From: Nocardioides marmoriginsengisoli
GTDB lineage: Bacteria > Actinomycetota > Actinomycetes > Propionibacteriales > Nocardioidaceae
NCBI RefSeq assembly: GCF_003725695.1
Contig: NZ_RJSE01000009.1
Location: 434,001-498,000 of the forward strand
Direction of reading: 5' to 3'
DNA length: 64,000 nt
Part shown: positions 37,056 to 43,809 of the stretch, in pieces
How the letters are laid out: each line of letters starts with the position of its first letter
How positions within the stretch are numbered: the first letter of the stretch is position 1
Program-made: the position numbers and the translations under genes
The notes under the pieces: generated by a model
The model's input: only the letters and a program-made list of their open reading frames with translations
What the model was told of the DNA's origin: nothing
Database searches by the model: none

Positions 37056-37071
37056 TGTTTCACGTGAAACA
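37056..37071. promoter_or_regulatory. parS: parS centromere site 1
   Basis: TGTTTCACGTGAAACA, a perfect 16-bp match to the bacterial parS consensus, in the leader of parA. ParB bound here could also affect parAB transcription. Confidence 0.95.
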
Positions 37072-37083
37072 GACCCGAGGGCC

Positions 37084-37147
37084 TGTGGATAACTTGGTTG
37101 GATCTGTGGACAGTCCCGCTCGGCGGTCCGTCAAAGTCGGTGGATAA
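37084..37147 (-). promoter_or_regulatory. DnaA-box cluster beside parS
   Basis: Read on the minus strand these are TTATCCACA (37092-37084, perfect) and two single-mismatch boxes (37113-37105 and 37147-37139) within 64 bp between parA and rsmG. They lie about 5.3 kb left of the unwinding site. Role is inferred: titration of DnaA or control of parA transcription. Confidence 0.7.
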
Positions 37148-40646: not shown

Positions 40647-40767
40647 TCGCACACCGACCCGCCTGAAAACGCTGAGTTCACCACTCAATTTCATGCTCGC
40701 GCACCCTGCACAACCTGTGGACAAAGGTGTGGATCGGACAACCAGGACGAGGGAGCACGAGGCGCAC

Positions 40768-42264
40768 GTGGATTCAGCAGCAGGCACCGGTTCGACGAAC
40801 ACCGGTGGATCAGCCAATCGGGAGCTGGACGCCCTCTGGCCGACCATCCTCGACAGCCTTGCTCCGAACCAGCGCGTCTGGTTGGCCACGAGCAAGCCGG
40901 TGATGCTCGCCGAGTCGACCGCCGTCATCGCCGTCCCCAACGAGTTCACCAGGACCCAGCTCGAGGGCCGGCTCCGCACCCGTCTCGAGGACGCGCTCAG
41001 CGACAGCCTCAACCGGCCGATCCGGATCGCCGTGAGCGTCGACGACTCGCTGGCCACCGACGAGACCAACGACCCGCAGCTGGCGATCACTGCGGACGCA
41101 CCGGTCGAGGACGTCGAACCGGCCACCGCGTTCGACCAGGCACCGAACATCAATACATCGTTTAATCAACAAGGTGCTTTGTCGACAAACATCCAGGGCA
41201 GCACGTCGTTGACCACGGGCATCCCGGACAGCCCGCTGAACCCGCGGTACACCTTCGAGACCTTCGTCATCGGCTCGTCCAACCGGTTCGCCCACGCCGC
41301 GGCCGTCGCCGTCGCCGAGGCACCCGGCAAGGCCTACAACCCGTTGCTGGTCTACGGCGACTCCGGTCTCGGCAAGACCCACCTGCTGCACGCGATCGGC
41401 CACTACGTCCGGAGCCTCTACACCGGGGCGAAGATCCGGTACGTCTCCTCGGAGGCGTTCACCAACGACGTGATCAACGCGATCAAGGACGCGAACACGG
41501 CGGCACTGCAGCGCCGGTACCGCGACGTCGACGTGCTCCTGATCGACGACATCCAGTTCCTGGAAGGCAAGCAGCAGACGCAGGAGGAGTTCTTCCACAC
41601 CTTCAACACGCTGCACAACGCCAACAAGCAGATCGTGATCAGCTCGGATCGGCCGCCGAAGCGACTGACCCAGCTCGAGGACCGGTTGCGGAACCGGTTC
41701 GAGTGGGGTCTGCTCACCGACGTCCAGCCGCCCGACCTCGAGACCCGGATCGCGATCCTGCGCAAGAAGGCCGCGGCCGATCGCCTGCACGCGCCGGCCG
41801 ACGTGCTCGAGTTCATCGCCAGCCGGATCCAGACCAACATCCGCGAGCTCGAGGGTGCGCTGATCCGGGTGACCGCCTTCGCGAGCATCAACCACCAGGA
41901 GGTCGACATGACCCTGGCGGAGATCGTGCTCAAGGACCTGATCCCCGAGGGCGGCGAGCCGCAGGTGACCGCCGGGCTGATCATCGCGCAGACCGCGTCG
42001 TACCACTCGTTCAGCATCGAGGACCTCTGCGGCCCGAGCCGGACCCGTGCCCTGGTGACGGCCCGCCAGATCGCGATGTACCTGTGTCGCGAGCTGACCG
42101 ACCTCTCGCTCCCGAAGATCGGCCAGCAGTTCGGCGGCCGCGACCACACCACCGTGATGAACGCCGAACGACGGATCCGCAAGGACCTGGCCGAGCGCCA
42201 GACCACCTACAAGACGGTCAACGAGCTCACCATGCGGATCAAGCAGCAAGCCAAGCAGCCGTAG
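40768..42264 (+). CDS. dnaA: Chromosomal replication initiator DnaA
   Basis: ATP-dependent origin-unwinding protein of 498 residues. Domain I (about 10-90) is LWPTILDSLAPNQRVWLATSKPV. A variable linker follows; its codons 127-140 are strikingly A+T-rich. The AAA+ domain has Walker A YGDSGLGKTHLLHAIGHY, Walker B VLLIDDIQFLEGKQQTQEEFFHTFN, and sensor motifs ISSDRPPKRL and NIRELEGALIRV. Domain IV ends in the DNA-binding signature GGRDHTTVMNAERRI. GTG at 40768 gives the usual domain I start; an upstream ATG at 40693 would run through the DnaA-box region and is rejected. Confidence 0.97.
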   Translation: MDSAAGTGSTNTGGSANRELDALWPTILDSLAPNQRVWLATSKPVMLAESTAVIAVPNEFTRTQLEGRLRTRLEDALSDSLNRPIRIAVSVDDSLATDETNDPQLAITADAPVEDVEPATAFDQAPNINTSFNQQGALSTNIQGSTSLTTGIPDSPLNPRYTFETFVIGSSNRFAHAAAVAVAEAPGKAYNPLLVYGDSGLGKTHLLHAIGHYVRSLYTGAKIRYVSSEAFTNDVINAIKDANTAALQRRYRDVDVLLIDDIQFLEGKQQTQEEFFHTFNTLHNANKQIVISSDRPPKRLTQLEDRLRNRFEWGLLTDVQPPDLETRIAILRKKAAADRLHAPADVLEFIASRIQTNIRELEGALIRVTAFASINHQEVDMTLAEIVLKDLIPEGGEPQVTAGLIIAQTASYHSFSIEDLCGPSRTRALVTARQIAMYLCRELTDLSLPKIGQQFGGRDHTTVMNAERRIRKDLAERQTTYKTVNELTMRIKQQAKQP

Positions 42265-42645
42265 GAACCACCGTGAATTCCTGTGGTTCACCGGGTCGAT
42301 TCCGGTGGACAGCCTGGGGACTCACTGTGGAGAAGCGGACAAGACCGTGCACAACCACCTCCTGGAACCACAGGAACGTGTCGTTCCACCACCGGAGATC
42401 CACAGCCCTCGTGGATCACAAAACTGTCGGTGACCTGCAGTTATCTGGGTTATCCACAGAATCCACCGGCCCTACTACTACGACTAGATCTACTAATTCA
42501 TCCTTCGCCGCGCCACAACCGGGACCGACTCGACTTGGGGACAACCTCCCGGGTGAAACACGAGCGTGGCAGGATGCCCAGTCCCAGGGACCCGTCCCAG
42601 GCATGAGTCCTCAACCTTGAGGTAGACCCGCAGGAGGCAACACCC
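42265..42645. other. oriC: Origin of replication (dnaA-dnaN intergenic region)
   Basis: 381 bp without a gene. It contains one perfect DnaA box TTATCCACA (42450-42458), a one-mismatch box TGTGGAGAA (42326-42334) and several degenerate ones (42282-42290, 42397-42405, 42410-42418). A DnaA-trio-like run lies at 42472-42498, and the A+T-rich 42482-42502 is the likely first-melting stretch. Position and content agree with actinobacterial origins. Confidence 0.9.
42450..42498 (+). promoter_or_regulatory. DnaA box plus DnaA-trio: basal unwinding element
   Basis: TTATCCACA (42450-42458), then 13 bp including a G+C cluster, then a run of CTA triplets from 42472 to 42498 (CTACTACTA, CGA, CTA, GAT, CTACTA, ATT). 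On the other strand this reads as repeated TAG trios, the element DnaA filaments use to open the duplex in Bacillus subtilis. Confidence 0.78.
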
Positions 42646-43809
42646 GTGAAGTTCCGCGTCGAGCGCGATGTTCTCGCTGATGCCGTTGCATGGACGGCCC
42701 GCGCTCTCCCCTTGCGTCCCAGCGCACCTGTCCTCGCCGGCCTGCTGATCGAAGCCGGGAACATCGACGGGACGGACGGCCTGCAGCTGTCCACCTTCGA
42801 CTACGAGACCTCCGCGCGGGCCACCTTGAACGCCGACGTCTCGATCGAGGGCCGGGCCCTGGTCTCCGGTCGGCTCCTCGCCGACATCTGCCGCAGCCTG
42901 CCGAACAAGCCGGTCGAGATGTCGATCGAGGGCGCGAAGGTCACCCTGACCTGCGGTTCGGCGCGGTTCAGCCTGCAGACCATGCCGGTCGAGGACTACC
43001 CGTCGCTGCCGCCGATGCCGGAAGCCCGCGGCCGGGTCAAGAGCGAGCTGTTCGCCCACGCCGTCGGCCAGGCGGTCACCGCCGCCGGCCGGGACGACAT
43101 GCTGCCGGTGCTGACCGGTGTCCGGCTGGAGCTCGACGGCAGCTCGATCTCGATGCTCGCCACCGACCGCTTCCGGCTCTCCCAGCGCGAGCTCGAGTGG
43201 GAGCCGGGCGCACCCGATCTGTCGGCCGCCGCGCTGGTGCCGGCGAAGGTCCTCGCCGATACCGCCAAGTCGCTGACCGGGGGTGCCGAGATCGCGATCG
43301 CCCTCTCCGCCTCCGGCGCCGGTGAAGGCATCATCGGCTTCGAGGGTTCCGCCGGCGGCGGCATCCGTCGTACGACGACCCGGTTGCTCGACGGCGAGTT
43401 CCCCAAGGTCCGGTCCCTCTTCCCGAGCGAGCACCTCACCCTGGCGCGGGTCGACCGCTCGGTGCTGATCGACGCGGTGAAGCGGGTCGCCCTGGTCGCC
43501 GAGCGCAACACCGCCGTCCAGCTGGCGTTCGCCGACGGGGTCCTCACCCTCGACGCCGGGTCCGGCGAGGAGGCGATGGCGAGCGAGTCGATCGAGGCCA
43601 ACATCACCGGTGACGACCTGACCACCGGCTTCAACCCGCAGTTCCTGCTCGACGGACTGACGGCCCTGGAGACCCCGTTCGTGGAGCTGGCCTTCACCAC
43701 GTCGGCCAAGCCCGTCGTACTCTCGGGAGTGGACACGTTGGAGTCTTCCGGCGACGCGACCGACTCGACCTTCAAGTACCTCCTGATGCCTCGCCGCCTG
43801 CTCTCCTGA
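42646..43809 (+). CDS. dnaN: DNA polymerase III beta sliding clamp
   Basis: The 387-residue processivity clamp. Three repeated clamp folds: FRVERDVLADAVAWTARALPLRPSAPVLAGLLIEA, RGRVKSELFAHAVGQAVTAAGRDDMLPVLTGVRLE and SVLIDAVKRVALVAERNTAVQLAFADGVLTLDAG. The conserved C-terminus is YLLMPRRL. GTG at 42646 with CAGGAGG eight bases upstream. Directly follows oriC and precedes gnd and recF. Confidence 0.98.
   Translation: MKFRVERDVLADAVAWTARALPLRPSAPVLAGLLIEAGNIDGTDGLQLSTFDYETSARATLNADVSIEGRALVSGRLLADICRSLPNKPVEMSIEGAKVTLTCGSARFSLQTMPVEDYPSLPPMPEARGRVKSELFAHAVGQAVTAAGRDDMLPVLTGVRLELDGSSISMLATDRFRLSQRELEWEPGAPDLSAAALVPAKVLADTAKSLTGGAEIAIALSASGAGEGIIGFEGSAGGGIRRTTTRLLDGEFPKVRSLFPSEHLTLARVDRSVLIDAVKRVALVAERNTAVQLAFADGVLTLDAGSGEEAMASESIEANITGDDLTTGFNPQFLLDGLTALETPFVELAFTTSAKPVVLSGVDTLESSGDATDSTFKYLLMPRRLLS

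Follow-up and report, generated by a model that had tools for sequence, protein, structure and literature searches.

A probable DnaA-trio strand-opening module between dnaA and dnaN of Nocardioides marmoriginsengisoli, and signs of a broader middle-base code in its class

The gap between dnaA and dnaN in the 64,000-nucleotide stretch of Nocardioides marmoriginsengisoli DNA analysed here (the window) very probably contains, at 42450-42486, an origin strand-opening module of the basal unwinding system (BUS) type, in which DnaA would be guided from a pair of boxes onto five trios with the code 3'-purine-(A or C)-pyrimidine-5'. In the proposed mechanism, DnaA would dock on the duplex DNA of boxes 1 and 2, and its AAA+ domains would continue as an oligomer along the minus strand from 42472, taking one protomer step per trio over the five trios, with the first two bases of each flipped out and captured. 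Strand separation would follow over the trios and the adjoining A+T-rich tract. The middle-base requirement would be for the exocyclic amino group common to A and C and not for A itself. DnaA binding, base capture and unwinding are extrapolated to the window DnaA from the B. subtilis structure.

RESULTS

Anatomy of the dnaA-dnaN gap

The elements of the gap are listed in Table 1. A first-pass annotation of this DNA had described a perfect box, a short G+C spacer and a run of CTA triplets that give TAG-type trios on the other strand, and this order is indeed present at 42450-42486. Two details needed amendment. The G+C spacer holds for GGCC (42468-42471) and not for the whole interval, as 42459-42467 is a second, degenerate box; the 13 nt from box 1 to the first trio are thus made up of box 2 plus GGCC. 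The triplets are phased, but the run is not pure CTA: the plus strand from 42472 reads CTA CTA CTA CGA CTA, then GAT CTA CTA ATT, so that the fourth triplet is CGA (trio 3'-GCT-5') and the array consists of five trios. The annotation's assignment to the order of the B. subtilis BUS is borne out, with order, strand, 13-nt spacing and tandem boxes all matching.

Table 1. Features of the dnaA-dnaN gap and of a second group of DnaA-box-like sites (positions in the window)
Feature	Position	Strand	Basis
dnaA, initiator protein (start codon provisional)	40693..42264	+	ORF list, phmmer alignment to 8btg, residue table
Upstream element GTGACCTGC (class consensus CTGACCTGC)	42430..42438	+	20 nt before box 1; class conservation
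DnaA box 1, TTATCCACA	42450..42458	+	sequence, perfect box
DnaA box 2, GAATCCACC, degenerate (3 mismatches), abuts box 1	42459..42467	+	sequence; TCCAC core across 74 genera, a core that the anchor score itself rewards
GGCC, G+C step from box 2 to first trio	42468..42471	.	sequence, class comparison
Five predicted DnaA-trios, 3'->5' on the minus strand GAT GAT GAT GCT GAT	42472..42486	-	register conserved
A+T-rich tract behind the trios	42487..42501	.	nearest-neighbour stability
Inverted DnaA-box-like site, TGGGGACAA on +, i.e. TTGTCCCCA	42536..42544	-	64 nt from first trio base
dnaN, sliding clamp	42646..43809	+	ORF list
DnaA-box-like sites near palindrome TGTTTCACGTGAAACA	37084-37092, 37105-37113, 37139-37147	-	

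The box letters TTATCCACA occur twice without mismatch in the 64-kb window, at 42450-42458 and at one other place, and with at most one mismatch they are matched 8 times against 1.41 expected. A combined pattern (a pair of TCCAC cores offset by 9 nt, then 5 nt, then four phased trios) is matched exactly only once across the 4.46-Mb genome, by the 42450-42486 site; with up to two mismatches it matches five more places, and a reversed-pattern control matches 3. An opening point at about 42472-42500, as put forward in the annotation, would agree with the least stable 30-mer of 42201-42700, which lies at 42472-42501 and begins with the first trio (tied to two decimals with the 30-mer starting at 42473).

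About 5 kb from oriC, at 37056-37147, we also observed a palindrome, TGTTTCACGTGAAACA, beside three minus-strand DnaA-box-like sites. The palindrome resembles parS and, by eye, adjoins the start of an apparent ParA gene. Separately, more than one DnaN-like match, either two or three, was seen in all 14 genomes of family f68 and in 13 of the 14 genomes of family f69, pointing to a second clamp-like gene.

The trio register is conserved across the class

The annotation had proposed, as a test that could refute it, that trio phasing be compared across the dnaA-dnaN gaps of Nocardioides and its relatives, and the register proved to be kept at the level of genus, family and class. Among named relatives, it is kept in 15 loci besides the window (L002-L016, from Marmoricola, Nocardioides, Nocardioidaceae or Propionibacteriales bacteria), with occasional misfits such as CAA in L008 and L013. 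The exact letters of box 1 are not conserved: TTATCCACA is found in 3 of 23 genus loci, window included, while TTCTCCACA and TTGTCCACA take its place in 8 of 23 loci each.

The class sample comprised 166 loci including the window; from one set of 148 class genomes it took in the loci supplied with the search plus 52 further ones, about one per genus. Of the 166, 160 had dnaA upstream (83 genera, 31 families) and 6 did not. A tandem box pair scored above threshold in 147 of the 160 (74 genera), which form the anchored set, and below it in 13. The anchor uses no trio base, and its score was devised after the family alignments and related loci had been seen; the threshold was reached on the reverse strand in 20 of 160 gaps and in shuffled gaps in 3 of 160. 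In the 147 anchored gaps the layout is a box pair, then 4 nt, then five phased trios. The fit to 3'-purine-[A/C]-pyrimidine-5' is 94, 77, 51, 64 and 61% at slots 1-5, with trio 3 the loosest slot, and falls to 3% at slot 6, compared with 12% at random places for the same trio pattern. At least three of the five trios fit in 126/147 loci (0.86) versus 0.019 of random places, and fewer than three fit in the other 21.

A triplet periodicity of this kind might instead reflect a short coding or transcribed dnaN leader, or a regulator site, in place of an origin element. Open frames do cross the gap, for example at 42283-42606, and 160 nt lie between the end of the array and dnaN. However, slot 2 is TGA in 37 of the 147 loci, which stops that reading frame, the array breaks off abruptly after its fifth unit, and it stays locked to the box pair even though gap length ranges from 304 to 1924 nt. 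We regard a leader or regulator site as extremely improbable and retain the DnaA-read trio array as the preferred interpretation.

Outside the class, the same box pair was found in 10 of 29 loci from other classes of the phylum, with a weak trio signal in these ten, and in 5 of 32 loci from other phyla, with none in that register in these five. Since the exact box-pair anchor mostly fails in other phyla, the class trio rule is not carried over to them.

The middle base of the trios is A or C

We then compared the base at the middle of each trio, weighting by genus. Trio 1 has A at 0.82 and C at 0.15, and trios 2-5 pooled have C 0.54, A 0.25, G 0.18 and T 0.03, against a whole-gap background on the same strand of A 0.17, C 0.29, G 0.34 and T 0.20. 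Over trios 1-5 the middle base is A or C in 82% of cases, compared with 46% when anchors were placed at random within these gaps; the largest of 1000 random draws reached 55%, and shifted registers gave 17-29%. Results were similar when the window's family was left out (51 genera), with A 0.39, C 0.50, G 0.08 and T 0.04 at trio 2. Central C outnumbers central G in 53 genera and the reverse holds in 15. Counted by families, C exceeds G by 8 to 1 at trio 1, 17 to 2 at trio 2 and 17 to 5 at trio 5, and the sign test is weak at trio 3 (16 vs 8) and trio 4 (16 vs 7). Central G still reaches 0.27, 0.21 and 0.18 at trios 3, 4 and 5, so the A/C rule is strict only at trios 1 and 2.

Substitutions were reconstructed by parsimony on a 134-tip DnaA tree, from which 13 of the 147 loci without enough DnaA were left out. 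At trio middles, A<->C changes numbered 100 and A<->G changes 23, compared with 229 and 321 in 30 downstream control columns (odds ratio 6.1), and random tie-breaking gave 96 vs 23 and 209 vs 312. C<->G changes at trio middles numbered 41. Without the window's family, the A<->C and A<->G counts were 39 vs 18 at the middles and 99 vs 130 in the control (p = 0.001). At first and third trio bases the commonest changes were transitions: A<->G at first bases (58/124), followed by G<->T, and C<->T at third bases (57/116). The 34 G<->T changes at first bases are also common, so the preference for a purine there is a loose one.

In B. subtilis, the amino group of the middle trio base is contacted by Asn187 of DnaA; in vitro, a central C in trio 1 gives strand separation at a rate like that of A, with G and T lower, and in vivo C in trios 1-3 gives faster growth than G or T (PMC10721633). 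The natural substitutions in the class follow this chemistry, as A and C share the Asn187-contacted amino group and the control columns instead favour A<->G. Judged from these sequence comparisons, the class trio code looks like 3'-R[A/C]Y-5' and not 3'-NAN-5', which suggests that the trio signal read by DnaA is looser than published, with a middle A or C.

The array might still act simply as an A+T-rich unwinding element of the ordinary kind, with no reading of individual triplets, given that the trios and the tract behind them form the least stable 30-mer and that the class-mean stability minimum lies just after trio 5. Yet trios 2-5 are mostly G:C in the middle across the class and the register is nonetheless kept, A<->C exceeds A<->G at the middles and not in the controls, and the fit drops at slot 6 as described above. 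Drift in G+C content was rejected as the source of central C, which does not correlate with the G+C of the retrieved stretches (rho -0.07, p 0.57), and this also speaks against a plain A+T-rich element. In B. subtilis, unwinding is lost when the trios are scrambled at constant base composition (PMC6669920). We consider an unread A+T-rich element very unlikely and trios read one by one the better account.

A pattern search of 296 class genomes gave a similar picture, although not all matches were placed relative to dnaA and one (G532) may be chance. The [A/C] pattern was found in 52 genomes, always at a single place, and in 42 of them the array has one or more central C; its reversed control matched once. 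The [A/G] pattern was found in 12 genomes, 10 of them with all-A arrays also in the [A/C] list and 2 with a central G, and its reversed control matched 4 times. In the subset G393-G536, the [A/C] pattern gave 25 matches (21 with central C) and the [A/G] pattern 4, all of them all-A.

Beyond the phylum, CGA was seen within the CTA arrays of six named Oscillospiraceae loci (L027, L031, L041, L043, L044 and L051). Of 33 named non-actinobacterial loci (L019-L052, L028 excepted), 14 have arrays of at least three C[T/G]A triplets, a pattern that admitted CGA by construction, and CGA occurs in 6 of these 14, the loci just named. In view of the Oscillospiraceae arrays, central C may extend beyond the actinobacteria.

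The base-reading residues of DnaA are conserved

The best named relatives of the window DnaA are up to 90% identical to it, and the genome is close to Marmoricola and Nocardioides. Aligned to 8btg, the window DnaA retains Glu183, Asn187, Ile190, Ile193, Lys222 and Glu228 of the B. subtilis protein. Some contacts are altered, with Arg202 replaced by Gln and Asn196 by Ala; the residue matching Glu223 is Gln. Glu183, Asn187 and Ile190 are present in all 64 readable genera of 74, Asn187 being unreadable in the other 10. Residue 202, the arginine of which contacts guanine in B. subtilis (PMC10721633), is Gln in about 38 of 66 genera (weighted) and Arg or Lys in others; the mean central-C fraction is 0.66 with Gln, 0.49 with Arg and 0.25 with Lys, uncorrected for descent.

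Elements flanking the box pair and trios

A CTGACCTGC-like element lies at -19 to -21 from box 1 in 114 of the 147 loci, and 33 are without it. At offset -20, at least 7 of 9 positions match CTGACCTGC in 60% of genera (genus-weighted) versus 0.4% at random places. We found no name for the element, and a literature text search with the letters TGACCTGC returned no replication-origin title among the matches listed. The element is possibly a site for another origin protein.

On the other side of the array, a site resembling an inverted DnaA box and matching it at 7 or more of 9 positions was found in 127 of the 147 loci, compared with 12% of shuffles. Its distance from the first trio base is 61-64 nt in 91 loci and 49-54 nt in 21. 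As a control, forward boxes in the same stretch were found in 36 loci, 11 of them at 51 nt.

The inverted site bears on a third alternative, namely that the trios are real but that DnaA gets to them by loop-back of the E. coli type, starting either from remote boxes or from the inverted box at 42536-42544. The nearly fixed distance of that box, with spacings of about 63 and 52 nt that are roughly one helical turn apart, speaks for such an arrangement. Against this, the distance from box pair to trios is invariant to the base across genera, and PMC6669920 argues for cis loading from the adjacent boxes. Loop-back thus appears unlikely, and we favor loading from the tandem boxes onto the trios.

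Comparison with known unwinding systems

By the published definition, a BUS has one DnaA box separated by no more than 16 nt from three or more 3'-NAN-5' trios, and a second box is frequent; such systems were predicted in 1755 of 2070 species, most commonly with a 13-nt spacer (PMC8287927). In the window, TTATCCACA lies 13 nt from the trios, inside the 16-nt limit set for a box, which may carry up to 2 mismatches; GAT GAT GAT GCT GAT supplies three consecutive 3'-NAN-5' trios; and GAATCCACC, with 3 mismatches, is a co-oriented second box (common but optional, up to 4 mismatches). The trio register is conserved relative to the boxes, and the trio-holding residues Glu183, Asn187, Ile190, Ile193 and Glu228 are present in the window DnaA. 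These five base-reading residues are thus common to the window DnaA and the B. subtilis BUS (box 6/7 plus trios; PMC6669920, PMC10721633), which also has co-oriented tandem boxes, a G+C step and the same trio strand and order. The two differ in that the B. subtilis structure has six trios (PMC10721633) and the array here five. In the class, moreover, the central base is mostly C from trio 2 on, Arg202 is often Gln, and the inverted box and CTGACCTGC stand at nearly fixed distances.

The BUS predicted in PMC8287927 have the same architecture as the module described here, but that search demands 3'-NAN-5' three times. Three 3'-NAN-5' trios in register are found in 47 of the 147 class loci, compared with 117 when a middle A or C is allowed (2% and 26% at random anchors). 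In our own approximation of the PMC8287927 rule, which is not the original program, 70 of the 147 gaps were positive, 42 at the conserved array and 28 only elsewhere, against 7 of 147 shuffled gaps.

DnaA-trios have already been annotated in print in the oriC of Kocuria rhizophila, likewise an actinobacterial dnaA-dnaN origin (PMC12500396); the available text of that account gives no trio rule, register or conservation. Deviant trios without a middle adenine have been suspected (PMC8287927), and the natural use of cytosine for the middle adenine has been raised as a possibility (PMC10721633). We found no report of natural central-C trios in the open-licence DnaA-trio literature, which here means the accessible main text of PMC8287927, PMC10721633, PMC12500396, PMC6669920, PMC13220808 and PMC10225481; supplements fall outside this scope, and a report elsewhere is possible.

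DISCUSSION

Taken alone, the window site is a further predicted BUS; the class comparison makes it a variant with an apparently broader base code. We think it reasonably likely that the trio is a chemical code, 3'-purine/amino base (A or C)/pyrimidine-5', and that the Actinomycetia amount to a natural experiment on it, with central C the norm from trio 2 on and often swapped with A, G disfavoured and T nearly absent. The same reading describes a fixed five-trio machine with CTGACCTGC on one side, 20 nt ahead of the boxes, and an inverted box on the other, at one of two distances, and from this flanking geometry a further protein may take part.

The class-wide comparison lends support to the natural use of cytosine in trios, and the same data provide an evolutionary test of the amino-group model. 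They also suggest a wider search rule, as a NAN-type rule sees the conserved array in fewer than one third of the actinomycete loci examined. For this high-G+C group, the analysis names a 15-base candidate target for strand opening.
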